In this document: piece after piece, positions 8,374 to 44,943 of the stretch | Position numbering within the stretch: the stretch's first letter is position 1 | Layout of the letters: the number at the start of each line of letters is the position of its first letter | Assembly (NCBI RefSeq): GCF_000264995.1 | Contig: NW_006767436.1 | Coordinates: 2,093,997-2,157,996 of the forward strand | Reading direction: 5' to 3' | Source of the DNA: Punctularia strigosozonata HHB-11173 SS5 | Taxonomy: Eukaryota > Basidiomycota > Agaricomycetes > Corticiales > Punctulariaceae | DNA length: 64,000 bases | Program-made: the position numbers and the translations under genes | Notes under the pieces: model-generated | What the model saw: only the letters and a program-made list of their open reading frames with translations | What the model was told of the DNA's origin: nothing | The model's database searches: none

Positions 8374-11300
8374 ATGTTCGGGAATAACGCAATCACGTCT
8401 ACCTGGGGTCAGCCCAACAACAACAATCAGCAGCAGCAGGGGACGTCTGCGTTTGGCCAGCCAGCCAACAGTGCGTTTGGAGGTGGCGGAGGTACGTCTT
8501 TCCCAGCCCGCGGCTGAGTGACTGAGCGTGCTGTAACTTCTTCCCATCTCATAGCGTTCGGGAGCGGAGGAGCCTTTGGTCAACCCCAACAGCAGCAACA
8601 AACACCAGCAGCCAATCCCATGTTCGGTAGTTTCGGCACCCCTGCGGCAAACACTAGCCAACCCGGGACGTCCGGTTTTGGTGCGTCTGATGTACAATCT
8701 GCGACCCCAACGCGTCTTGACACGCGTCAAGGTGCCTTCGGTCAGAACAATGCATCGACTACCGGTGCATTCGGCGCGAAGCCAGCCACTGGATTTGGCG
8801 CTTTTGGGGGCACCGGGACCTCGACGTTTGGGTCCGGTGGCGCGTTTGGGAACACAACGGCGCCTCAGCCGGCTGCAACGGGTGTGTTTGGTCAACCCAG
8901 CACAAGTACAGGCGCATTTGGAGGGGGTGGGAGCTTGTTCGGTACCAACAAGCCTGCGACTACGTTTGGTACAACTGGTAAGAAGCCACTGAAGTGCATC
9001 CAGCGGTTTGACACCATGTTAACATGTATCTTCACTTTAGCCGCAGATACGGTAGCCCCAGTAACGACGGGGTCATCCAATCCGCCATACTCCGTGTACT
9101 CGGAGAAAGATACAGCAAACGCTAGCATAACGCTGCAGTACCAGAGCATATCATGTATGCCTGCATATAGGGGCAGTTCTTTCGAGGTGCGCTTTTCATA
9201 ATTTCGAGCTATATATCCTCGCCGGGCATGAGATCTGGCGACACATTGTCTGTCAAAACTCGACTAAGTTTATGTTGCCCGTGTTAACTCTCGGCATAAC
9301 CCCTTCAACACACGCGACAGGCATCTGACTGTTTCGTCTTTTCCCTACCCGCTAGGAACTCCGTGTACAAGATTATCAGCAGGGTCGCAAGACTGCCAAT
9401 GCAACGGTTGGGACCGGCTTCGGGCAACCGGCCACCGGCGCATTCGGGCAACAGTCTACATCAGGCGGGATCTTCGGTCAACCTGCCCAGAGCACAACAG
9501 CCAACAATGCGTTTGGAGCATTTGGGTCCAACACAACCGCTACCCCGGCTACAGGCGGATTTGGTGCCTTTGGCCAGCAGAACAATGCGAGCCAACCCGC
9601 CAACACCGGTGGAGGTCTTTTCGGCGCGTTTGGTCAGCAGCAGCAACCACAAAATCCTCAGCCTTCGGCGTTTGGAGCCTTTGGGCAGGCCAATCAACAG
9701 CCAGCCGCGACTGGAACGAGTGGTGGGCTTTTCGGTGGAGGTAGCGCGTTTGGGCAACAGAACAAACCTGCGTTTGGTGCATTCGGTATGCTCATGTAAC
9801 TCAGAAACTTGACCATACGCTGATCAATTCGCAGGGGCAAATAACACCACAACCAGTGCTTTTGGCCAACCGACTCAATCGCAGCAGCCCACTACCACAG
9901 GCCTCTTCGGCCAACAGCAACCGCAACAAAACACTACTGGTAGTGCTTTCAGCGCCTTCGGTAGGATGATACTTCGCCATATCATTTTATAGGCTCTCAC
10001 GAACAGCAATTACTTCAGGCAGTAATAATAATCAACCGAAGCCCTCATTGTTCGGTCAACCGGCTCAGCAACCAGCGCAACAGTCGACTGGCTTTGGTCT
10101 CTTCGGCCAGCAGAATCAGCAGAACCAGCAACAATCGGGCCAGCCAGCGACAGGCGGTCTATTTGGTGGTGGAACCACCGGCGGGGGCTTGTTCGGTCAG
10201 AACAGTCAGCAGCAGCAGCAGCCGTCTCAGCCGCAAACAGGAGGTTGTAAGTAACATAACCTCTTTCAGGTTGCTTGCGCTGATAGTCGTGTAGTATTCG
10301 GTAATACTCAGCCCGCTCAGCAGCCTGCCACTGGCGGTCTATTCGGCGGGGGGACTACAGGAGGGCTGTTCGGGAACACGCAACAACAAAACCAGCAGCA
10401 ACCAACACAGACGAGCGCATTCGGTGGAGGCGGACTTTTCGGTACAAAACCCGCCACTACGACGCCTACCACCGGCGGACTATTTGGTGGACTTGGACAG
10501 AACAACACTGCGACGAACACTCAAACATCGACGGGTCTTTTCGGTAGCACCTTTGGTCAGAACAACGCGCAGCAGAACAATACGGGCAGTACATTGAGTG
10601 GCGGCTTGTTCGGTACAAAACCCGCAGCCCCGGCTTTCGGAACGGCGTCGTCGACGGGGCAGGCTACCGGAGGATCTCTCTTTGGTAGCACGCTTGGTGG
10701 CACTGGCAATACATTCAATGCTTCCGCTACTGCTCCCGGTGCACAAGGATCGCTCACTGCGTCAATCGCACAACCCATTGGAGCCAGCCTACCTGTCTTC
10801 AGCATGCTACCTCCGGGTCCACGGGCAGTTCCTCTTGATCAACCGAAGAAAAAAGCCGGCTTCTTCACGGATGTTCCTACTCGTTCACCAGTTCCCAGAT
10901 TGCAGCTTGGATTTACCCCTGCAAGCACGAAGCTACGCGGTTTTGCGTCGACGGCCGGTGGAGGCAATCTCGGCTCCAGTTTAGCATATTCAACGACGAA
11001 GTCGGACGCTCTCAACCTCACTCGATCGGCCTCCCCTAATAAGGGCATACCTGGACCTGATGTTTTCCTTAACGGAGGCGGCACAAGTGGCAGCAACGGC
11101 CGTCAAAGCGTGAAGAAACTGGTTCTGAACAAGAAAATCGAACCTGCTCATCTACTTGGCAGAGCGGGGTCGCCGGGCCTTGCTACGGCCGGTGGCAAAA
11201 CGTCCTTCAGTCCAGTGCTTGGGATCGCTGCACGACAGAAAGAGGCCGAGGCTGCTTCAACGACGCCAAAGCCAGAAACTCCTGAACCCACCCCAAGTTC

Positions 11301-11805
11301 CACCCGCCCCAAACCATCCGATGGCGATGCATCGTCCGCGGACCCGAAGACTGCAGACTTGCAAGAGGGCGAGTATTGGTGCAAGCCTGACTTAGCCACC
11401 TTGCGCACGATTAGCTACCACGAACTGCGTGCCTTCAAGGGGCTGGTGGTCGGTCGAGTTGGCTATGGCCAGATCGAGTTCCTCGCCCCGGTCGACCTGA
11501 CCGGAGTGCCGCGGCTTGACGCCTTATTCGGCGATCTGATCCTCTTCGAGGATGCAGAGTGTGCCGTTTATCCTAATAGCGACGAGGCGGACAAGCCGCC
11601 GCCAGGCGAAGGTCTGAATGTGCCGGCAAGGATCACGCTCTGGAAGTGTTGGCCATTGGACAAATCCACGCAGGAGCCTATCAAGGACAAGAATCATCCA
11701 GCTGCTATCAAATTTCAAAAGCGCCTTGCCAAGCGAAAACACATCAAACACGAGCATTGGGATCTGGAGGAAGGGAAATGGGTGTTCCGGGTCGAGAGTT
11801 TTTAG
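8374..11805 (+). CDS. NUP98: GLFG nucleoporin NUP98/NUP116 family
   Basis: This is a structural and permeability-barrier component of the nuclear pore that also docks the mRNA export factor Rae1/Gle2. The ATG at 8374 starts MFGNNAITSTWGQ. A long FG and GLFG repeat domain rich in Gln, Asn, Gly and Thr runs to about 10750, broken by several short introns. Within it lies a GLEBS motif: SNPPYSVYSEKDTANASI, AYRGSSFE, then a 169-nt intron (9187-9355) and ELRVQDYQQGRK. The C-terminal autoproteolytic-type domain (about 11365-11805) begins EGEYWCKPDLATLRTISYHEL and includes VVGRVGYGQIEFLAPVDLTG and ITLWKCWPLDK. The protein stops at WVFRVESF, so there is no HFS cleavage site and no Nup96 half. It is therefore organised like yeast Nup116/Nup100. 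It is convergent with the ferric reductase gene. Confidence 0.94.
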
Positions 11806-18057: not shown

Positions 18058-18252
18058 GTTGTGGACCAAAGGAAGAGCAGGAAATTTCCATTACAGTTGC
18101 CAGCTAGATAGTGGCAACGCGGCTGAGCCGCGTTTCCTTACGACGTTACGTCCATCCTCGTCGATTTCTCGATCACATGATGGTAAGTAATTTATGGCGG
18201 AACACAGCCACCAGCCTTTTGCTACTCTCCAGTTGGACCAACGCTCGGCGCA

Positions 18253-21200
18253 ATGCCCGATGGCTCTGCCATGACCAAGGATACGTTCAATACGTTAGAG
18301 CGAGAGCGCAAGTTTAGATTCCCCGACAAGACCGGATCCACGGTCCCAATACTCAACGAATTTGTGCTCCCTCACATCGAGTCTTTCAATGCTCTCTTCG
18401 ACGATTCTGGCTTGCCAAAAGGCGATGGCAATGGCAAAGGCCTGCTGTCGCTCGCCCTGAAGGATATCGGAGAACGCGTGGTATTTGATGGAACAGGCGA
18501 ACTTGGCAACGTGAGTGGTCAGTCGGGTTGGGGCAATCGCCTTGCAAGTGAGTTTCGCAATCGAAAGTTCAATGTTCCATCGCATAATCATATGCATGTC
18601 AGTTTCCATCGAGGAAGTAACTGTGGCGCGTCCCATGGTCTCTGAACGAGCTAAGGCTGTCGTGGAACCCCGTATATTCCCTTCCGAGGTGAGAGGTTGC
18701 ATCTGTCTGCAGGATGCATTCCGTCATGCTATAGTGATGACATACTGATTTTTCGTCTGTCATAGGCTCGTGAGAGGCTGACATCCTATCGTGGAAGGAT
18801 GTACATCAAGCTCAACTTTACGCTCAATGACAATCCGGTCCGCACAATCCAGAAAGACTGTGGTTTACTCCCCATCATGGTCCGCGTGCGTTAGAGACGA
18901 GTTCGCTTGCGCGTATTATACATGCTGATAAGGGCTGTTCACCATATAGTCGGTCCGATGTAATCTTCGTTCCATGTCCTCTGCAGAGCTCGTCGCACGG
19001 CACGAGGAACCGGAAGAATTCGGGGGGTATTTCATCATCAACGGCAATGAACGCCTTATCCGTCTTCTCATTTTACCTCGGAGGAACCATGCTATTTCCC
19101 TGTTTCGCCCTTCTTGGGCCAACCGCGGCCCGTCTTATACGCCGTACGCCGTCCAAATACGGTGCGTCCGCCCGGACCAAACCGCCGCCACGAACACGCT
19201 GCACTACCTGCAAAATGGCAACGCCGTCCTACGCTTCACTTGGCGGAAGAATGAATACGTTATCCCCGTGATGCTTATCCTCAAAGCTCTCGTTGGTGCC
19301 TCGGACAAGGAGATATTCGAGGGGCTTGCCATGTGTGATTACGAGAACACGTTTTTGACAGACCGCATCGAGATGTTGCTTCGCGGTTTTAAAACATATA
19401 GTCTGTACACAGGCACTCAATGCCTCGAGTACCTCGGCGACAAGTTCCGTGTCGTGCTCGGTTGCCCCGAGGATTGGACGAATTCCGAGATCGGTGACTG
19501 GTTGCTGAAGAAGATGGTTCTCGCTCACCTGCAAGATCCGAGGGACAAGTACCGTATGCTCATGTTAGTCCCGTACCCATCCCAACTGATTGCTTGCTCA
19601 TCCTTCGTACAGTTTCATGCTCCGCAAACTTTACTCCCTTGTATCTGGATCGTGCGCGCCGGATAATCCAGATTCTCCCCAGCACCAGGAGGTCTTGCTT
19701 CCAGGGCATCTCTATGGAATGATCATCAAAGAGCGCCTGGAGGAGGTCCTCGCTCAAATTCGGAGTCAGATCTACGCCGACGTGCGCAGAGAAGACCCTT
19801 CCATCGACTTTACTGATGGTACGTCGTGGACGGTCACATCTTCGCTCGGCGCTCTGATGGGTGCCCACCAGATCGCTACATCAATAAAGTTCTATCCCGC
19901 GTCAACTTCGACATAGGCGCGAAAATGTCCAATTTCCTCGCTACTGGTAACCTGATTTCCCCGACCGGACTTGATCTCCAGCAAACATCCGGCTTTACCA
20001 TTGTCGCCGAGAAACTGAACTGGCAGCGCTACATCAGCCATTTCAGATCCATACATCGTGGGGCTTTCTTCGCTGAATTGAAAACGACGACGGTCCGTAA
20101 GCTGCTTCCGGAAGCTTGGGGTACGGATTTTGCATTACTGTGTCCGTTTGTCTGTCTAATCACTTATCGACGAAATGCAGGTTTCTTGTGCCCTGTGCAT
20201 ACGCCCGATGGAACGCCTTGTGGTCTACTAAACCATTTATCTCGAACATGTCGGATCGTGACTACTCCGCTACCCGTCGCTCACCTTCCCGCCCTGCTCG
20301 CGGAACACGGCATGTCTCATCCATTCGCGCCTTCACTTGATGGTCGGGGACATGCCAACCTTTGCGTTCAACTCGACGGCCGGGTCATCGGCTGGGCCCG
20401 ACCTGCCGTGGCGCTCCAGCTCGCTGAAAGGCTTCGGATATGGAAGACAGAAGGCCTTCACAATGTGCCCCTGGATCTCGAAGTCGGATACGTTCCGATA
20501 TCGGAAGGTGGACAATACCCTGGGCTGTACCTGTTTTCGACGCGGGCTAGGATGATGCGACCGGTTAGGTACCTTGCGAACGGTCGTGATGACATGATTG
20601 GTTCGTTTGAGCAGGTTTATATGGACATCGCGATCAAGCCCGAGGAAATCGAGCTAGGGGTTTCTTCACACGTGGAACATGCTCCAACGAATTTCTTGTC
20701 TATCCTTGCCAATTTGACTCCGTTCTCGGATTTCAACCAGGTCGATGTCTGCCTATCTGGATATGTTGCCTGATACTGAATGTTCTATAGAGTCCTCGCA
20801 ATATCTATCAATGTCAGGTACGCGACTTGGCGACAATGATCGAATTTCTGTGTCTCACCGAATAATAGATGGGCAAGCAAACCATGGGTACGCCCTCGAC
20901 CGCCATCAGACATCGCACGGATAACAAGCTATATCGTCTTCAATCTGGGCAGAGTCCCGTCGTACGCCCTAAACTCCACAATACGTACGGCATGGATTCC
21001 TTCCCCAACGGCACCAATGCCGTTGTCGCCGTTATTTCCTATACTGGTTATGACATGGAGGACGCCATGATATTGAATAAGTCCGCGCACGAACGCGGCT
21101 TTGCCTACGGCACCATATACAAATCGCAAACTGTCGATTTACAAGAACAGCATGGAGCTTCGAAGTCTAGGACCTCACCCACTCTGCATTTCGGCATAGG

Positions 21201-22505
21201 GGACGACGTCATCGTCGAGGCCGGAACCAAGCAGCACCATTGTGTCGAATTTCTCGACATGGATGGCCTCCCTAGAATTGGCACGCGACTGTCCACCGGT
21301 GACCCTATAGCGGCGTATATCGACGATACTACGCACAGGACGCGCTTTGTGAAGTACAAGGGTGATGAGGTGGCGTACGTCGACGAAGTCCGTTTATTAG
21401 GTGAGCGCCCCCCTGCTGTGCCATTTCTTCGGGTTATACAGGAGGCTTATCTGCGTAGGTGACGATGCCGGTGATTCAGAATTGCAGAAGATTCATATCA
21501 CTTTACGCATCGCACGAGCACCTGTTATCGGTGACAAGTTCTCGTCCAGGCACGGGCAGAAAGGTGTTTGTTCGCAGAAGTGGCCAGCGATCGATATGCC
21601 TTTCAGCGAGAGCGGGATGCAACCAGATGTTATAATCAATCCACATGCGTTCCCCAGTCGCATGACAATTGGCATGTTAGTGGAAAGCATGGCTGGAAAG
21701 GCCGGTGCTATGCACGGACTTGCACAGGACGCTACACCTTTCCAGTGAGTGAAACAATAGCTGCTTTGCACAATCCTGTTGCAAACATCTTGTTAGGTTC
21801 TCCGAAGAAGATACCGCTGTGGATTATTTCGGCAAGCAACTTCTCGCAGCTGGATACAACTACTACGGCAACGAACCTATGTATTCGGGGATCACCGGAC
21901 AAGAGTTCGCTGCGGACATCTACTTGGGAGTTGTCTACTATCAACGCCTACGACACATGGTGAACGACAAGTTCCAGGTGCGGACGACGGGACCTGTGGA
22001 TCCTGTGACGCGCCAACCGGTGAAGGGCCGCAAGAGAGCCGGAGGTATTCGGTTTGGGGAGATGGAACGTGACGCCTTGATTGCACATGGAACGTCCTTC
22101 CTCCTACAAGATCGACTGATGAACTGTTCGGACTACTCAACCGCATGGGTTTGCCGTACTTGTGGTTCTCTCATCTCGCTAGGCTATGAAGACGTCTCGT
22201 TAGGGGAGGTGATGATGGGTTCGTCTGCTACCATCCGGCCGCGGGGACCCGGGGGCGAGTATTGCCGCGTCTGTAGGGCCGCGGCGGAAGAGGAGGATGA
22301 ACGGGCACGCAAAGCGCTGGCAGACGGTGCCAATGGCCGTCAGCACGCCCGAACAGACTTGCGAGTCTCGATTTCCTCCCATCATGTGTTGAACAAAGCT
22401 GCCAAGGGTGGTGATCTGGACGTTGTCGCTGTGCCGTACGTCTTCAGATATCTGTGCGCGGAGCTGGCTTCCATGGGCATAGCCATTTCCTTGGAGGTTC
22501 GATAA
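18253..22505 (+). CDS. RPA2: DNA-directed RNA polymerase I second-largest subunit (Rpa135/Rpa2)
   Basis: This subunit forms half of the active centre of nucleolar RNA polymerase I, which makes the large rRNA precursor. The start at 18253 ([22 protein letters not shown]) matches the usual Pol I opening before the protrusion. Pol I-type motifs include [58 protein letters not shown] and [18 protein letters not shown]. The hybrid-binding core has [29 protein letters not shown] and [19 protein letters not shown], with [20 protein letters not shown] downstream. The C-terminal zinc site has CRTCGSL and EYCRVCR. The protein ends GIAISLEVR. Around ten short introns break it. All catalytic and zinc-site motifs are intact, so it should be functional. 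Confidence 0.96.
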
Positions 22506-22819: not shown

Positions 22820-25800
22820 TCATGCATCCGCGAGCAACAATCCAACAATCGAGTTCTGTAGATCATCTTCCAGGATGGATAAAGGCTTGGGAGGAGTCTG
22901 GGGTCTGTGGCGAACGACGGAAGGACTGGGCGAGGGATAAGGTACGTCGGTGTCCGTGTTCGCTGTAGGTGCGTTGAGCACGCCGGACTTGCCCAGGAAT
23001 ATGTCGACCAGTAATCTGCACTCGTCAGCAGTGGCTGCTTTCGAGAGCAGTTTACGCAAGTCATGGGCTTCCTGCTGAGACAGGATCGGGGTATTATTAG
23101 CACTGCTGGCAGTTTGATCGTCTGTGGAGGGCGGAGAAGCAGCGGCTGCGTCCTCGACAGGCTTTTCTGCTTCTGATACGGGTGCCGGCGTGGGAGCTGT
23201 GCCGCTTGCAGGTGTCAAAGCAGTCGGGGATGCACGTTTCTCTTTCCTCTTGATAGGAAGTTTCGGGACTTCACTATCAGTGATAACTGTCCTGTGATGC
23301 GTCGACGCGGGGCTGCCCAACGGGCTGTCGTTGCCTACAGAGGCTGCAGAAGGCGGTGCTTTCGTCGGCAATGCAGGGGGTAAAGGCGCCTCGATCGTTG
23401 GAGATGGTTGCTCGCCCGCGGGCATGGTCGCGGATCGCGTGCGCCCATTCGTGCTCGCCTTGGCGGTAGTACCAATGTCGTCATCCGAGGGTTGCCATCT
23501 AGGCACGGCTTTGCGGTGGGATACCTCTCGCTGCACTCGAGACGTCGGTGGTGACGACATGGTCAAATCTTCGGATGACAGCTGCGACGGGGATGATGGA
23601 GGAGACAGCGGAGCCATGTACGGCGGCCGCGGCGGTTTGGTAACCACTGTCACATTTTGCAGCGACACTTTCGATGCAGACGATAGAGAAGACGGCTTCG
23701 GAGGTGTAGGATAAGAAACCGGAGGCAGGCCTATGCTTCTCGGAGACGATCTTGCATCGTCATTGTTCCTGTACAGGCGTTCCGCCGAGGCTTTGCTGGA
23801 CAGAATTCCTGACACCATACGTTGCAATCGTCCCGTCTTGGTCTTACGGGTGTCAAACGAGGCAGCAGTAGCTGTCTTGGGCATCACGGGGATATCTGCA
23901 TCAGGAGGACCCGAGGACAGAAAATCGATGAGGTCCTGGGTGTTCTTGCTGATATACCCCGGCTTCGGTGTTGCCGGACCCTTCCTGCCAGGAGTTGTAG
24001 TAGCTGACCTGGACAGCGGCACCACCTCCTCGTCGTAGTCACCACCGCCCATGATATCGTCGAGGTCCATAGATTCACGGTTCTGAGCAACCTTATGTTT
24101 GCGCTTTGGCATCCCCGAGGAATCTGATGTGGAAGTTTTAATCTGGGTGGGGCTAGGCCGAAGCTTCTGAGGTGTAGCAGGCACCGGCGGCGCAGAATCG
24201 TTAGGTCCGCGTCTAGGCATAAGGTTAGCAGAGGCTGAGAATGATCGAGACCTCGGAGGCGGGTCCGTGAGAACGGGCTGAGCGAGGTCTGGGGGTGCAT
24301 TTCTCGTGGGCCCCGCCGTGGGATGCATGCTGGTCTGACGCGGACGGACGGACGATGGCAGAACATTTATACTCTGCGGGGCCTGCGATCCGTCCTTCTC
24401 TTCTTCGTCTTCCCGAATAGAATCAACTCGTGTCACGGGCCGCCTTCCCCCGAGCGGACGCTTCGGTGTCGGTGACGGTGTGCCGGTGTCGCCCTCGCTG
24501 GTTTCCTGGGTGGCTAAATCCATACCGGGCGGAGGTACCCGTTTGACTCCACGTTGATTGCGCTCTTGCTTGTACATCTAACGGAAAGCATGTCACTGGA
24601 AAGGTTCGAACATCCCGAGTTGACTAGTCAAAGTACCTCCATGCTTCTCAAGCGGTCAGGAGTCAACGACATTTTCATCGTAGACCCGGATCGCATGAGA
24701 TCATCGAAATCGCTCTGGTCCTGGGTTCAGAAAGTTACATGGAGTGCGCGAACACTGCTTTCTCTACTCACCTGCAACTCCACTGGCGCATCTGCTGTAA
24801 CATTCTGATTTCCTTCGAAAGCCTGCCACATCTGCCTTGTCTCGTCGCTGACGATGGATTCCGACATGCTGTGGTTTCTGTCACCGGAATTGTTGGGCTG
24901 CTCGCTACCGGAGGCACCGCGATTATGCTGTATTAACATCTTCAGGGCCCTTGCCTTCTCGAAGGATGTCCTTGTCGGCGGGCTAGCAGCGCCATGGGAG
25001 GTAGGGACTGTCTTTCCCGACCTTGACGAATCACTCGATAGACGGGCACGTCCATTCGACCGGCTGAGATCTTGGGAAGGAGAATTCCGTCCAACAGAGG
25101 CATTGCGATCACCGTTACGCGAAAAGGACTTGCTACGTCGCGGTTGAGGCATCTTAGACAAGGCCTCAATCTGCTCGTATACTATCAAACCATAAACAGG
25201 GTCAAAACCTCTCCGACATCAATGAAAAATCACATACCTTTCATGCTCTTGAACAAACCGTACATGCTGTCATCCTCGCAAAGCGCAACAAATAAGTCCT
25301 GCACTGTTGCGACGTTTCGGCTGCTGTCTCGGGCAGCAACTCGGCCAACAATCCCCAGGGTATGCCTATTAGCATTGTTGAACATATGCGCCAAAGGGGA
25401 GTTGGATGAATACGTACTCGCAGACCGCCCTGTAAAGATGATTAGACACGCAGAATCCGATCAGTCATGGCGACATACTCTAGGATTGCCGTGAGGTATA
25501 ACGCTGCCTGTGCGACCAAATGCGGTTTCGGGGGGGACACGCTGCCTGCGCGAATCATACGCTCTTGCAGGCTTCTTTCGGCGTCTGGGTCCTCGTCGGA
25601 GTCGTTAAGAGTGGAGTATGCTTCACATTTGAGGCGCAGCAACTGAGTTGGAGACCACGGCGTTCAGACAACGCAAGGATGGCCCTCATACAAGCGCTTG
25701 CTTACCTCAAAGGCATACTGTAGATCGAATGTCTCTGCATCCTCCCCGGCCGTAGATCCGTTGGAGGCCGTCCTTTCCAGGTAAGCCCGGAGTTCGACCT

Positions 25801-26041
25801 CAGCTTCCAAGAGCGCCTCCTTTCCCAGCGACGTGGGCAAAACGCGACGCAAACCGGCGTTTAAATGATCCGTGGTCAAGGAACGCGACGCGTTGAGGAT
25901 GCTCCACAGAATCTCGTCGAGGAGAACGTTAATGCAACGGAGCGCCTCGATTTTCAGCTTTATGGGCCTGACGTCGGACAGCACAACATCTGCGGACCGA
26001 GAGGATATGTAGGTCGGACCTGGGTGGAAGTTCTGGATCAT
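22820..26041 (-). CDS. Tandem histone-fold (H2B-like + H2A-like) protein with long disordered tail
   Basis: I do not recognise a named orthologue. Residues about 31-90 (exon 1, from ATG 26041) read like an H2B fold: IEALRCINVLLDEILWSIL, a short loop, then LTTDHLNAGLRRVLPTSLGK, EALLEAEVELRAYLE, matching the H2B alpha2, alpha3 and alphaC pattern. Exon 2 leads to a second fold at about residues 150-210. After two short introns with GTATGT and GTACGT donors it reads AALYLTAILEAVCEHTLGIV, GRVAARDSSRNVATVQDLFV, ALCEDDSMYGLF, which follows H2A from alpha2 through the AARD segment. The remaining roughly 750 residues are Ser/Pro/Thr-rich with basic patches. A conserved-looking helix lies near the end (EAHDLRKLLSKAATADECRL LVDIFLGKSG). 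Human Sos1 has a comparable tandem histone fold. A nuclear or membrane-binding role is possible; function is unknown. Confidence 0.65.
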
Positions 26042-26535: not shown

Positions 26536-29500
26536 TCAGTCAAACATCGCCAATGCCGACTCGACTACTTCCTCGTCCACAGCTTCCGAGTTCACCGCCG
26601 ACAGCAATTCCACCGAATCTTGGTTCCGTTCGTGAAAGCTTAATGCCCGCTCTGTCGTCGACACCGCTACCTCATCATGCTTGTTGACCCGGGGCGTTGC
26701 CTTGAGCAGCAGTTCATCTTCTGAGCTATCTCCATCACCGCCGTGAGAGGAGAATTCAGGCGCGGCGATTGGTGTGCTAATGAATGCGTCTGTATCGACG
26801 TCGCGGTCCCATTCCTCATCAGCTACGTCGCATTCACCCCCCTCACAATCGTCCTCTTCTTCCGGGAAATCGAACACGACTCCCTGGAGCACTTGTTCCG
26901 ACACAGCAAGAGAGGCCAGCTCGTCGAAAGGCCTCCGCAACTTTGCGCGCCGTGCCCGGGCGGGAGTCTCCTGAAGGAAATCGTATGCATCCCCTCGTCC
27001 GCGCCGCGCACGCAACGACTCCTCGACATCCTCACGACTGATTTTCTGAGTCTTCGGCGGGTGTCGTGCAGCGTGATGAGAGCCGAAGTACAACTGCGTG
27101 CTTGCATGAATCTGACGGTACACCTTTTGGGATCATCGTGAACCACTCTCCCGATAAGAATGCGAATGATACGTACCCAAGGGCTTATTCTCGCGCGTCG
27201 CACGGACGAAGTAGGTTCCTGGGTGATGTGTCGAGTTATCGCCATGTATGCCGGCATTGTAGTAGGCATGTCAGGTAACGGATTCAGCACTGGGATGAAT
27301 GGTTCATATGAGATCTTCTTGAGAGCTCCCGGCCCATGGTCAGAGCCGCGATGCCTCTTCAAGTCATACATAGTGGCGAAGGTATTCTCGCAGTCTATCG
27401 ATGTCACATCAGTGATGGCAAATTGCGTTGTGCCCACAACGACTCGCCAGCGTACGGACAAGGCAGCGTATGGTGTTCATGCATCTGGACATGCTGTATC
27501 AAAGCCTGACGGCCACTACATCGCTGCTCACAACTTTCCCAAAGACATAAGAGCGGTTCCTGTCTCGTTGTTCAGTCGACAACGCCATTCCTATTGACAT
27601 TATACTTGCCCAGGAATCCAATCCCTCCGCGTGCAGTACGAGGTGCTGACCCAGTTTCTTTCCACATGCTAAGAGCGCTGTACATTCCCTCCACCGACAA
27701 GGTCGCGGGAACAATGCGACTGAGACTTCTCGAGCGAAGTCTTCATCTAAAAATTGTATCAAGCAATGGCAAGGGTATCTAGAAAGATTTGATTACCCTC
27801 TGGGCTCGAGCTGGTAAACCCTAAATCAATCAGCGAGCGGTGGTTCCATAATTTTGATGTGCTCACCTCGCTCCCTGGCTTTATGCACCCACCCTGGGGC
27901 AACCGGAACTTCCACCCATATATCACGCTTTTTAGCGCGACTCAAAGACTCATCCGTCACCTCTTCAGAAGGGACGACTCTGGCCACTGTCAGCGCGTCC
28001 TCATCCAAATGATGTGCGAACTGTACAGCATCCTCGGCAGATGTCGATTCGGGGGGTGTCGGCTCGAAAGAAGAGATTGTACGAGGAGGAGGTTCATGCC
28101 GATGGCCATTCAACATATTAACGGCACCAGGATCGCCCATTGGCTGGTCCGGCACTGATGACACTCCCCAAGATTTCGACGCCGCCGGCACCGACTGCAC
28201 GGCCGTGGAGTGTGACGTCGCTAGCAAAGGAACGTCCGGCTGGTTAAACTGAGGTATCGCTCCAGAAAGATCGCCGTTCAGGCTCGTCTGCACGATCGGC
28301 GGCGTATGATGTGCAACTTGTTGCGAAACGCCAGCCCGATACTTTTTTGCGGTATCGATCGGGAGTGGCGTGGATTCTGGGGATGTACTCCGCCTACGCT
28401 TCAAGAGCGAGTTGGGTCGCAATGCGCGCAAAATATCTTTAGCCAGTCGCCTCTTGTCCGCTTGTTGGGGCGAACGAAGCGGTATCTGCCGCTCATTCCG
28501 TTGCAATTGGGGTGTAGATACTGGAGAGCGTGCTGCGCTGCTTTCCTGTGGTTGGAAAGTCGGAGGAAGCTGCGGGGGAGGCGTCGTAACGCCACGAGCT
28601 GAAGCCGAGGTTGAACCTGGAGCCGACATATATCCTGCAGTGTATGGCCGGTATGTCCAATGATGGGGTTGCGGCTGTTGCTGATTGTGACTCTGCTGAC
28701 CTGTTATCGAAAATGCATGTCCTTCTCTCGCGCTTAGCTTAGCTGACGTGGATGCAACGCTGGGCTTATCATTCAACAACATGCTTGGGGCATCCTGCGT
28801 CGAAGCATGTCTGGGTACAGATGCCGCAGCCGCAAGTCCATCCTGGGTGACGAGCGCATTTTGGTTGCTTGTCGATGCTGTCCCTGGTACGCCAATTCTT
28901 GCAGCAGATGGACGATTATGACTTGAATCGAGTACGGGCGGGGCTGGGGTGGTATGGGCGACATGAATAGAATCGATCATTTGTGCCACGTATTCTTGAG
29001 CCATGTTCTAGTATCACACTGAGTACTTGCTCCATCACCGCGGGAGTGTGATACCTCCTACCTTCGCAACACGCTTCACGGATTGTACATCCTACGTGAT
29101 TTAACGTCATTGTTAAACGAGTATATTGTAGCGACATTCAAGGAATCACCTGTCGCGCGTCATTGGCTTGCTGCGATGATGACATGGATGGAGACGTTTG
29201 CTGGGAAAGCCGGGGCTGCTTAATGTTGCTTTCCGATTCATCGATTTCCACGATCCTCGATGAATCTTCACTAGCTTCGTCTGTGCGCTCTACTGAGGGG
29301 AAAGAGGCAATGGTGGGTGTACCGAGAGCGCCCGATAAACTGGAGGAAGAGGCAACGAAGGGGGAGGGTTCTAGACGGTGCATTAGTTTCTAGAAAGGGA
29401 GTATATGGCATAGATCCCACCAGCGTTGTCGATGTGCACGGTGTTTGAGGAGCTATTGAAGTGGCCCTCCATCGTTTGGCTTACTGGGTACGGACCAGGG

Positions 29501-40012: not shown

Positions 40013-43000
40013 ATGGCGGGAAGCGACAGCGACATTTTGGGTCACCCAGAGATACCGCTTCGCAAAGCTCCTATGTTCTCATCCTGGGTGCTGGCTCTGC
40101 TCATCGTCGCCGCGACCATCTTCGGCGGGTTCGGGATCCGATGGCTCTCTAGTGCCTTCAAAAAATGGCAAGAGAAAAGCTACAGAAAGTGATTCATCCA
40201 TTCCTCACTCGCCCCGTATATGCGTCTAACGAACATCGTGTTCCCATCAGAGCAATGCGGCGAAGATACGGAATACCTGACGATGATCATCGGCCTTTCA
40301 ACGTCGCCTATGCTGCTGCTACCAACGCGCGTCGCGAACAAGAGAGGGATGCCAAGAGGAGCTCGGTATCTGGCACTCCATCACGTAACGCATTGGCGGA
40401 CGGTCAGAAACAACGGCGAGGTCAAGCGAGACCACCCGGTGAGTGCCGTTACCACAACGGGCGCATGGATATTGGATTTCTCATACTATGTGACCTTCTA
40501 GGCTTTGTAGCGAAGGCAGTACAGAGAACTGTACAGCGCGATGCTGCCAGGCACTATCCTTCCCCACCTGCGGAACAGGCTTCCTCTCCACAACGAGGCT
40601 CTCTGTCTGCCACTTTAGGAAACACGGGATCATCAATACCGAACTCGCTCTCAACGCCCTATATTCCCGGTGGTCTGGTTGGCGTGACCCCTATACCGGT
40701 ACCAGACAGTGCCGATCCTCCGGCTCGCAGAGGTCATATTAGAAAGTACGAGGCCGAGTCTGATGATGAAGGCGACGGGGAGAATTACAAGAAGTCTCGC
40801 GTAGCCGAAGAAGAGATCGCTGAGGATGACGCTGACATCGAAGGGCAGGATCTCGTGCCTCAACGGGGGCATAAGCGCTCCACCGACTCTGTTGATGTCT
40901 CCGGCAGACGTGACAAACGCGCGCGCAAGGTGTCACTTGAGCAGCCTGGTGCGGAGATGGACGTTGATGGGACAGAGGCCGAGGACGGATTGGCCGACAT
41001 AACTTCGGCGTCCAGTCGCGGGAAGCGTGCTTCTGCTGGGGTGAAGCGGCGCCAGAGCGAGGCAGGCTCGACCTTCGGTGGTGACGACAGCTTGGAACTG
41101 GAATTGGAAGGGGAAGATGACGGCGTTCGAGCGCGTCACAGGAAGCGACGCACCTTGCAGAAGCGCAACTTTGAAGTCGCCACTAGAGGACAGAAGAGGG
41201 ACAGACTTGCCTCAGATTCGGACTCCGATGTTGACATGCACTCGAATGATGGTTCCGAACAGGGTAACTTGCGGAAGCGAGGGAAGAGATCGAGCACTAC
41301 GGCGTCAGAGAAAAGCTTCGGGAACGAGCNNNNNNNNNNNNNNNNNNNNNNNNNNNNNNNNNNNNNNNNNNNNNNNNNNNNNNNNNNNNNNNNNNNNNNN
41401 NNNNNNNNNNNNNNNNNNNNNNNNNNNNNNNNNNNNNNNNNNNNNNNNNNNNNNNNNNNNNNNNNNNNNNNNNNNNNNNNNNNNNNNNNNNNNNNNNNNN
41501 NNNNNNNNNNNNNNNNNNNNNNNNNNNNNNNNNNNNNNNNNNNNNNNNNNNNNNNNNNNNNNNNNNNNNNNNNNNNNNNNNNNNNNNNNNNNNNNNNNNN
41601 GGGATGCCAAGAGGAGCTCGGTATCTGGCACTCCATCACGTAACGCATTGGCGGACGGTCAGAAACAACGGCGAGGTCAAGCGAGACCACCCGGTGAGTG
41701 CCGTTACCACAACGGGCGCATGGATATTGGATTTCTCATACTATGTGACCTTCTAGGCTTTGTAGCGAAGGCAGTACAGAGAACTGTACAGCGCGATGCT
41801 GCCAGGCACTATCCTTCCCCACCTGCGGAACAGGCTTCCTCTCCACAACGAGGCTCTCTGTCTGCCACTTTAGGAAACACGGGATCATCAATACCGAACT
41901 CGCTCTCAACGCCCTATATTCCCGGTGGTCTGGTTGGCGTGACCCCTATACCGGTACCAGACAGTGCCGATCCTCCGGCTCGCAGAGGTCATATTAGAAA
42001 GTACGAGGCCGAGTCTGATGATGAAGGCGACGGGGAGAATTACAAGAAGTCTCGCGTAGCCGAAGAAGAGATCGCTGAGGATGACGCTGACATCGAAGGG
42101 CAGGATCTCGTGCCTCAACGGGGGCATAAGCGCTCCACCGACTCTGTTGATGTCTCCGGCAGACGTGACAAACGCGCGCGCAAGGTGTCACTTGAGCAGC
42201 CTGGTGCGGAGATGGACGTTGATGGGACAGAGGCCGAGGACGGATTGGCCGACATAACTTCGGCGTCCAGTCGCGGGAAGCGTGCTTCTGCTGGGGTGAA
42301 GCGGCGCCAGAGCGAGGCAGGCTCGACCTTCGGTGGTGACGACAGCTTGGAACTGGAATTGGAAGGGGAAGATGACGGCGTTCGAGCGCGTCACAGGAAG
42401 CGACGCACCTTGCAGAAGCGCAACTTTGAAGTCGCCACTAGAGGACAGAAGAGGGACAGACTTGCCTCAGATTCGGACTCCGATGTTGACATGCACTCGA
42501 ATGATGGTTCCGAACAGGGTAACTTGCGGAAGCGAGGGAAGAGATCGAGCACTACGGCGTCAGAGAAAAGCTTCGGGAACGAGCAGGATATTTCCAATGA
42601 TCCGCTATGCAAAGGGCGGAAGATTGGAGAAGAATGGACAGCAAACGGTATCAGGTACAAAGTAGGCATGAACGGACAGCGACTTCGTCATGCGCTCGTC
42701 AAGAAGAAGCAACCGACCAAATTCCCGATGGTCAGTTTACCCTACGCGTTTTCCAAGGCCGTACTGACGGAAGTGCAGCCTAGCGACTCTCAACATCCAG
42801 ATCGCGGTGCCGGTGTGGTCATTTGGGTTGAGACCTGGCTCTCTGAAGATGAGTACAAAGCGGCCAAAGAACAAGGCGACCTAGCGTGGCAGAATACTCC
42901 TCCCCTGAAGACTAACGGCTCTGAACCCACTACCCCTGACAGCGCGGCGGTATGTCACCGCGGTTCATCGGTGGGATCATGCTAATCGTCGTTTCATAGG

Positions 43001-44943
43001 TCTCGCCCACCAAGGTTGGCAAAAACCTGTTGTGGTCTTCCACCACAGGACGTGCGAGCGACTCACCGCTGCTTAAGCATAACACCCTTCGCCAGTCGAT
43101 CACAACGACTGCGGTGCTCCGAGTAAACCCCTTCCAGCAATCACAAGCCACTCCAAACCGAACGTTGGGGCGTCGTATCAGCGCCAACAGCCCACTCACG
43201 CTCGCCGCCGACAGCCCAAAGCAGCCGGGATCAAAAACATACAGCAAGTGGGAGAAACAGGACTTGGAGGCAGAGGCGATGGCAAAAATGCGACAGAAGT
43301 TACTTGACCAGAAAAAAAATTCAAGCAGTGCACCAACGTCCCCTAGTCCCCCTCTTGCAGTATCTGCTACACCTGCAGCGCCCAACGCCTTGGGAAGCTC
43401 ACCAGTTGTTCCCCTGCTGAAGCCTGCTTCATCGACGCCGCCCTTCGCGCCTGCAGTCAAGTCGTCGGAAAGCGCAACGGACAAGGCACCTCCGCAGTCA
43501 TCCACAGGGTCCAGTGCGTTTGGGTTCGGGTTCCCGAGCGTTGCGCCGAAGGCGCAGGGATCCTCGGCGGTGGACAGCGATAAGATCAAACCTCCAGCCC
43601 CATTAGTATCCGGCTTTGGGCTTGGAGCACCCCCAACCTCTACGAATTTGGCTTCGTCGTCCGATGTAGCTGGAAAGCAGCCTGAGGTGAAGACCGCCAA
43701 TGAATCAAAGACGCTTGGCAATCCGCTGGGTTCAATGGGTCCTCCTCCTGTCCCTGTCCCTGGACTCGCGTTCGGTTTCAAACCCACGCTGCCATCAGCT
43801 TCACCCTTGCCTACTTCAGCCCCCAAGCCTGCCGACGCTGCGGCAAAACCCAATTCGTTCACGTTCGGCCCTTCATCTACCAACTCCGACAGTACAAAAC
43901 AATCTTCACTCGCTGCTACAGCTGTGTCGAGCCCATCGTTACTGAGCCGCATCGGCGAGAGTAGTTCTGCCGCCAGCGGCGCAAGTCCGGCGCCGGGTGC
44001 GACTGTGGCCCCAGCCCCCTCTCTGTTTTCGTTCAAACCGAACACTCAGAATGCCCCAGAGAGTACAAAAGCCTCGTCGTTCTTCGCTAACAGTCCGGGT
44101 GCCAATACCGATCCATCTCCGGTGTTCACCAGTAAACCGCCCACCTTCAGCTTTTCACTCGGCAAGCAGCCCGAGACGAAGTCAGAAGCCAACAAAAATC
44201 CGGGGCCTAGTGCGGCTAACCCCTCTGCTCCTACGCCGTCCGTGCCATCCTTCTCCTTTGGTGCCCCTAAAAACGACGGGACGACGACGGCGCCTGGATC
44301 AACTGCAGCGAATAAACCCGTGTTTGGAATGGCTACGGGCGGTCAGAGCGCTTTCGGCGTGAACAACACTGGCAGTATTTTCGGTGCGACCAATACTCCT
44401 GGAGCCACGGCTAGCAAACCCGCGCCCTTCACCTTCGGTTCCGCCTCTGCTACTAGTTCCACACCGGCAGGCGACGGTAAGACTGCCGAAGCCTTCAAGT
44501 CGGCATTCAGCAACCCGACGGCGTCAGCTGCGTCGCCCGCGGCGCCGAAAACAACTTTTTCCTCGTTCGGTTCTTCTACTACGACACCCGCGGCTGCAGC
44601 GACGAATACTGCGGGGGGCGCAGACAAGAAGCCACCGACTTTCTCTTTCAACTTTGGTTCGGGAGCGTCGACAGGGCCGAATGCGCCTGCGTTCGGTAGT
44701 GGAGGTGCTTTGGGCAGTTCAACCAACCCCAACGTTTTCGGCTCATCCGCCTTTGCCACGAACAATGCTGCTGCACCGGCCATTGGCACGGCCAATACCA
44801 CAAGCAACGCCTTCTCCTTTGGCCAAAAGCCCGCTGCTGCTGGGACTTCTTCACAGTTCGGACTAGGGGCAACTCCGTCCAGTTCGTCATCTCAATCACC
44901 ATTCACCTTCGGAACTTCGGGACAGAACCAAGGGCAGAAATAG
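40013..44943 (+). CDS. FG nucleoporin with N-terminal membrane segment (assembly-interrupted)
   Basis: This is a nuclear pore protein of the FxFG type. A 59-codon exon (ATG 40013) encodes a membrane helix at residues 25-42 (WVLALLIVAATIFGGFGI) followed by a basic face (RWLSSAFKKWQEKSYRK). A 62-nt intron (40189-40250, GTGATT donor, TCTAAC branch, CAG acceptor) joins it in phase to AMRRRYGIPDDDHRPFNVAY. A highly charged, probably nuclear-import-rich middle follows, then a conserved patch (WTANGIRYKVGMNGQRLRHA, VETWLSEDEYKAAKEQGDLA WQ). From about 43500 to 44930 there are many FxFG and FG repeats. The 1255 bp from 40346 to 41600 look like an assembly duplicate plus gap; without them the gene is continuous. 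Nup1, Nup124 and Nup153-type proteins are alternatives if the first exon is not used. Confidence 0.75.
40346..41329 (+). repeat. 984-bp direct repeat, copy 1 (probable assembly duplicate)
   Basis: This block recurs at 41601-42584 with a constant offset of 1255 bp. Every position I compared is identical, including an intron and third codon positions, and open frames within it translate identically on both strands. It ends directly at the N gap. Confidence 0.9.
41330..41600. other. Sequencing/scaffolding gap (271 N)
   Basis: A run of N separates the two identical copies. Its bases are unknown and any translation through it is meaningless. Confidence 1.
41601..42584 (+). repeat. 984-bp direct repeat, copy 2
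   Basis: Identical to 40346-41329. It begins immediately after the gap, and the sequence continues into the rest of the nucleoporin gene (QDISNDPLCKGRKIGEEW), so this is the copy in true context with the 3' half. Confidence 0.9.

Follow-up and report, generated by a model that had tools for sequence, protein, structure and literature searches.

Double histone folds are known from archaea, bacteria and viruses, from the animal proteins Sos and ABTB2, and from SPT3 (PMC13088155). In a 2026 review, the histone (H) domains of Sos are listed for animals and Capsaspora, ABTB2-type and HSIH-DHF proteins for animals, and SPT3 for animals, fungi and protists, together with archaeal doublets and with bacterial and viral types; SPT3 is the only double histone fold that its table gives for Fungi, and no tandem histone fold is known to be used for homodimerisation (PMC13088155). 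The Sos domain is assigned a role in autoinhibition and protein interaction (PMC13088155), and docking as well as binding of the lipids phosphatidylinositol bisphosphate (PIP2) and phosphatidic acid are described for it in two further papers (PMC6328564, PMC3762125). Here we describe a multi-exon gene on the minus strand (26041–22820) of a 64,000-nucleotide (nt) window, the whole stretch analysed, from contig NW_006767436.1 of the fungus Punctularia strigosozonata HHB-11173 SS5. This gene, referred to as the double-fold gene, probably encodes two consecutive histone folds of the H2B–H2A type in one polypeptide, as judged from its sequence.

The predicted protein is 963 residues long with an 84-nt exon of probable status and 935 residues long without it. 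Its N-terminal portion is laid out as an H2B-like fold at residues ~11–94 (HF1), an acidic linker at 95–135 and an H2A-like fold at 136–213 (HF2). An earlier note on this DNA had read the two halves in one chain, in the order known from Sos; phmmer searches, shuffles and a core pattern bear out this reading over residues ~11–213, and the order is indeed that of 1q9c, the Sos histone domain. Against the Protein Data Bank (PDB), phmmer finds 73 distinct sequences at E ≤ 10, and the best 60 of the 73 all contain H2A except 1q9c, which is matched by the fold region at E = 0.43. The top match is 7dlx (E = 9.8e-5 over the whole sequence), in which H2B and H2A are joined as a single chain; its halves align in the same order, and its HF2 stretch, taken singly, reaches E = 0.046. 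HF2 alone matches macroH2A at E = 0.0045 and Sos at E = 0.27, and none of 5000 shuffles equals its score against the H2A or Sos profiles; at the level of sequence, the H2A-like half is secure. The H2B-like half is assigned with moderate confidence from a similarity that is specific to H2B and not shared with H2A: 17 of 5000 shuffles do as well against H2B, and 2 of 5000 when Sos is added.

The pattern of hydrophobic residues can be compared across both halves at once. Among the 57 positions that are hydrophobic in both Sos and H2B–H2A, 49 are also hydrophobic in the double-fold protein, a score reached by none of 200 shuffles and by none of 30 other open stretches. The shuffles were realigned, replacing an offset control that ignored alignment optimisation, and the control stretches were six-frame open stretches of at least 200 residues, cut to 231, antisense included, with the last exon of this gene possibly among them. 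Identity to the fungus's own histones is low, at 17 of 70 columns (24%) between HF1 and H2B and 18 of 66 (27%) between HF2 and H2A. No Pfam family is matched at E ≤ 10 by the 935-residue protein, by either half or by the joint 231 residues, and the core-histone family Histone (PF00125) is likewise without a match in the protein; a genome scan with PF00125 lists 23 matches at E ≤ 1, none of them within the window. The same Pfam search upholds the earlier claim that no guanine nucleotide exchange factor (GEF) domain follows the folds in the 935-residue protein, and the 18 matches listed in a RasGEF scan of the genome all lie outside the window.

It is likely, from these alignments, that the H2B-like and H2A-like folds pack against one another as an intramolecular pseudodimer. 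Several results nonetheless weigh against the proposed structure, its function or its kinship. The match of HF1 to H2B is modest in strength, the 7dlx stretch corresponding to HF1 gives E = 50 when taken singly, and a PDB search with HF1 alone yields no histone, its sole match being an unrelated protein (E = 0.62). Against Sos HF1 alone the comparison is not significant (106 of 1000 and 568 of 5000 shuffles). AlphaFold2 models exon 1 by itself with a mean predicted local distance difference test score (pLDDT) of 48.6 and a predicted template modelling score (pTM) of 0.30, and a Foldseek search with this model gives 53 matches at E ≤ 10, none of them at E ≤ 0.001. The human Sos1 histone domain (residues 1–186), searched against the genome (33.6 Mb, 32 contigs), gives two matches at E ≤ 10, and this locus is not among them; both lie on contig C7, one at the H2A gene of the fungus (E = 0.001) and one at a further histone-family locus (E = 0.002). 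Viral scans found 3 pattern-matching stretches for the folds (231 residues) and 10 for the tail (381 residues), and a prokaryote scan with the folds (209 residues) found 39, none of which proved to be a relative by tblastn; these scans used single sequences and reach close relatives only. Finally, the 26 SP/TP sites of the tail do not significantly exceed the shuffle mean of 20.6 (199 of 2000 shuffles were as high), and the idea of phosphorylation clusters in the tail was rejected on this count.

The low-confidence model of exon 1 contains helices at residues 17–51, 57–67, 74–94 and 107–111. The positions of the first three would suit alpha-1/alpha-2, alpha-3 and alpha-C, respectively, and are not evidence of the fold. 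Chains from nucleosome entries do occur among the Foldseek matches (6r25_D, rank 25, query TM-score 0.32), and these are weak and were treated as meaningless. The behaviour of HF1 raises the question of whether the second half alone might be a true histone fold, the first half being helical but unrelated and the H2A-like fold having another protein as its partner. The absence of a PDB histone match for HF1 alone, its moderate shuffle statistics and its unconfident model would all fit such an arrangement, which we consider to have little likelihood given that HF1 is specific for H2B over H2A, that it occupies the place of the partner in Sos and in H2B–H2A fusions, and that the core pattern spans both halves.

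The charge of the double-fold protein sets it apart from the fungus's own histones. Its four DNA-contact loops, picked by alignment, carry a net charge of +5, compared with −3 in Sos and +11 in the fungus's own H2B/H2A, and its fold cores are −1 and −1, compared with +5 and +5 in the same H2B and H2A and +3 for residues 18–173 of Sos. The linker has a net charge of −9, residues 17–212 including the linker come to −11, and the basic N-terminal histone tail is absent. With loops that fall well short of +11, cores close to neutral, a strongly acidic linker and none of the basic N-terminal sequence of histones, the double-fold protein is, judged by its predicted composition, not a packaging histone.

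Downstream of the folds is the long Ser/Pro-rich tail that the earlier note had described, which comprises ~750 residues. Ser, Pro, Thr and Ala account for 44% of it, and its net charge in the 935-residue model is +14. Order-promoting residues make up 0.17 of it, compared with 0.32 of residues 1–231, and the 585-residue last exon, which makes up most of it, has no PDB match at E ≤ 10. The whole protein contains seven [ST]Px[KR], four PxxPx[KR] and two [KR]xxPxxP strings, as well as three K/R-K/R-x-K/R strings, one of which lies inside PKRKHKV, a basic segment resembling that of simian virus 40 (SV40) that tips the predicted location slightly towards the nucleus. Near the end of the tail, AlphaFold2 run without an alignment predicts a helical hairpin (22994–23077, minus strand; the …EAHDLRKLLSKAATADECRLLVDIFL… region), with a pLDDT of 73–83 in three blocks, which account for most of the hairpin, and 58 in the last. 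Conceivably, this hairpin is a small interaction element.

On balance we lean towards a docking module as the function of the pseudodimer, rather than chromatin packaging or membership of a nuclear complex. Most likely it would act as the histone domain of Sos does, providing a platform, always folded and monomeric, for docking to a partner protein or to the tail of the same chain. Other partners would be recruited by the disordered tail (~750 residues), which has many SP/TP sites, a few PxxPx[KR] strings and a small helical hairpin, perhaps under the control of kinases. Both the docking and its regulation by phosphorylation are steps that we infer.

Some of the same features could instead point to a chromatin or transcription cofactor, in which the pseudodimer would stand in for an H2A–H2B-like pair within a nuclear complex, the role of SPT3 in SAGA, or would present itself to histone chaperones as H2A–H2B, while regulators would be recruited by the tail. 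By phmmer, the closest families are H2A and H2B, the DNA-contact loops are more basic than those of the cytosolic Sos, the tail is positively charged, and PKRKHKV resembles a nuclear localisation signal (NLS), although such a string is weak evidence in a tail that contains K/R. At the positions that we take to form the H2A acidic patch (E56, E61, E64, D90, E91 and E92), the alignment retains three acidic residues (E56, D90 and E91, the last as D); at the other three, the acidic residue is replaced (H for E61, G for E64 and S for E92). No SPT3, TAF or NF-Y family is matched in Pfam. A cofactor of this kind is a rather unlikely alternative.

A membrane or cortical adaptor, with the pseudodimer binding acidic lipids in the manner of the Sos histone domain (PIP2, phosphatidic acid) and the PxxP strings binding SH3 proteins, appears improbable. 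The order of the halves and the spacing within HF1 are Sos-like, the Sos domain is described as lipid-binding in the papers cited above (PMC3762125, PMC6328564), and four PxxPx[KR] and two [KR]xxPxxP motifs are present. However, these motif counts are raw and come from a tail with ~13% Pro, the near-neutral cores and the net charge of −11 over residues 17–212 count against this reading, and Pfam gives no lipid-binding domain.

The gene model is built on GT...AG splice signals and frame continuity, from which the exon joins are predicted. All features lie on the minus strand. Exon 1 (25706–26041) encodes residues 1–112, comprising the start codon, HF1 and the onset of the acidic linker, and ends at a GTAAGC donor. 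Intron 1 (25643–25705; 63 nt, GTAAGC...CTCAG) falls within the linker that joins the two halves and preserves the frame; a YTRAY branch-like site was looked for in it and none was found. Exon 2 (25479–25642) completes the acidic linker and covers the H2A-like fold through alpha-1 and half-way into alpha-2 (…QAALYLTAILE), and is followed by intron 2 (25430–25478; 49 nt, GTATGT...TTACAG), which has a CTAAT 16 nt from its end. Between intron 2 and intron 3 (25366–25417; 52 nt, GTACGT...AATAG) lies a probable 12-nt microexon, exon 3 (25418–25429), that with its flanking bases encodes E-A-V-C-E in alpha-2 of the H2A-like fold. Exon 4 (25238–25365) supplies the second half of alpha-2, loop 2 and alpha-3 (HTLGIVGRVAARDSSRNVATVQDLFVALCEDDSMYGLFKSMK), and is separated by intron 4 (25182–25237; 56 nt, GTATGT...GATAG) from exon 5 (24772–25181), in which the disordered tail begins (VYEQIEALSKMPQPRRSKSFS…). 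The splicing model therefore places three introns in the histone-like region, where the earlier note had counted two.

Skipping the microexon would keep the frame and give a protein of 959 residues, and the score of HF2 would fall from 61 to 51 against H2A and from 71 to 61 against Sos; its inclusion is thus based on similarity and not on frame. Such exons may be overlooked by gene finders, which could conceivably help such proteins to go unrecognised.

In the 3′ part of the gene, a different model can be considered. Exon 7 (22820–24577; 585 codons plus stop) encodes the bulk of the Ser/Pro/Ala/Thr-rich tail, with the NLS-like PKRKHKV, the PxxPx[KR] strings and strings of the cyclin-dependent kinase (CDK) type. 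It opens with an ATG (ATGTACAAG), and the intron before it, if undivided, would be 194 nt long, compared with 49–63 nt for the other four, both of which could mean that the disordered tail is encoded by a gene separate from that of the folds, a possibility that would be compatible with the other readings. Yet a probable in-frame exon of 84 nt, exon 6 (24637–24720; DQSDFDDLMRSGSTMKMSLTPDRLRSME), whose alternative is to form part of the single 194-nt intron, divides this interval into introns of the usual size, one of 51 nt (GTGAGT...CCCAG) and one of 59 nt (GTACTT...GTTAG), the donor of the second being weak; without exon 6, the frame of exon 5 would reach a stop at 24727, leaving ~150 bp to the ATG. 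Two separate genes seem highly improbable.

The double-fold gene converges with a gene for the second-largest subunit of RNA polymerase I (~18187–22505, plus strand), the stop codons of the two being ~315 bp apart; the Rpa2-specific domain of that subunit falls in 19817–20770 and Rpb2 domains 6 and 7 in 21753–22502. Upstream on the same strand (26536–29007, minus) are neighbours with long, disordered-looking frames, two of which, 27829–29007 and 26539–27132, match no Pfam family at E ≤ 0.001. Elsewhere in the window are a Nup98-96 gene with its autopeptidase domain (10255–11805) and a second FG/Ser-rich open frame without a Pfam match (43000–44943). An exact direct repeat of 984 bp (40346–41329 and 41601–42584) flanks a gap of 271 N (41330–41600), and is most likely an assembly artefact, in which an overlap was left unclosed and part of a gene appears twice.

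Residues 1–231, searched against the fungus's own genome, give three matches, all of them exon pieces of this gene, so that no second copy is seen at E ≤ 0.001. The earlier suggestion that such a protein is undescribed in fungi agrees with the review, which lists SPT3 only for Fungi (PMC13088155), and with the open-access literature: among the papers listed, judged by their titles and the openings of their abstracts, none reports a fungal protein of this kind. A fungal H2B–H2A-like double fold on a disordered scaffold would extend the list of known double histone folds, and would provide a genetically tractable setting for asking what a non-nucleosomal histone pair does; it would also bear on the origin of the Sos histone domain.

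Among the known systems, ABTB2 (Cca3) is similar in having a double histone fold within a eukaryotic multidomain protein, and its relatives are given H2B-like and H2A-like folds (PMC13088155). It differs in its ankyrin repeats and BTB domain, for which there is no Pfam match here (E ≤ 10), and in being listed for animals only. There is little similarity to an unverified ABTB2 sequence (22 and 24 of 500 shuffles), a comparison that deserves little weight. SPT3, of SAGA, shares with the present protein a double histone fold in Fungi; the protein described here has no match to Pfam families of the TFIID-18kDa or SPT3 type (E ≤ 10), and its nearest PDB sequences are H2B/H2A. The viral H2B–H2A doublets of Marseilleviridae and the HSIH-DHF proteins also join the two kinds of fold, H2B-like and H2A-like, within a single chain. 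However, they resemble packaging histones, with at least 60% identity in the case of HSIH (PMC13088155), whereas the halves of the double-fold protein are at 24% and 27% and precede a long disordered tail.

Another close parallel is the H domain of Sos1 (1Q9C, 3KSY). Sos carries DH, PH, REM and CDC25 domains that have no match here (Pfam, E ≤ 10), and the fungal protein is further distinguished by its acidic linker of ~40 residues, by DNA-contact loops of +5 rather than −3 and by its host. In both proteins, an H2B-like fold is followed by an H2A-like fold at the N-terminus of a single chain, and both have a long Pro-rich C-terminal portion. In HF1, the spacing between the proline that closes V-x-x-V-x-P and the aligned proline that follows it (in …LP or FP, ahead of the H2B alpha-C region) is 43 residues here, 43 in Sos1 and 53 in the fungus's own H2B, so that the fungal protein and Sos1 share the same mid-fold shortening. 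Within the H2A-like half, the alignment shows T.QD..VA.C.D......F to be common to both, and 17 of 53 columns of HF2 are identical to Sos. A closer relationship to Sos than to H2A is not claimed, since for HF2 Smith-Waterman scores favour Sos over H2A (71 to 61) and phmmer favours H2A (20.8 to 15 bits), the diagnostic identities of HF2 tie at 7 to 7, and in those of HF1 H2B leads Sos by 9 to 5. A common origin with the Sos histone domain is possible and unproven. More tentatively still, and with the odds against it, the protein could be a fungal homologue of that domain without an exchange factor, in which case the module would have sat on a scaffold in the ancestor of fungi and animals and later been fused to a Ras activator in animals. 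On that view it would serve in docking, and Fungi would have another double histone fold in addition to SPT3.
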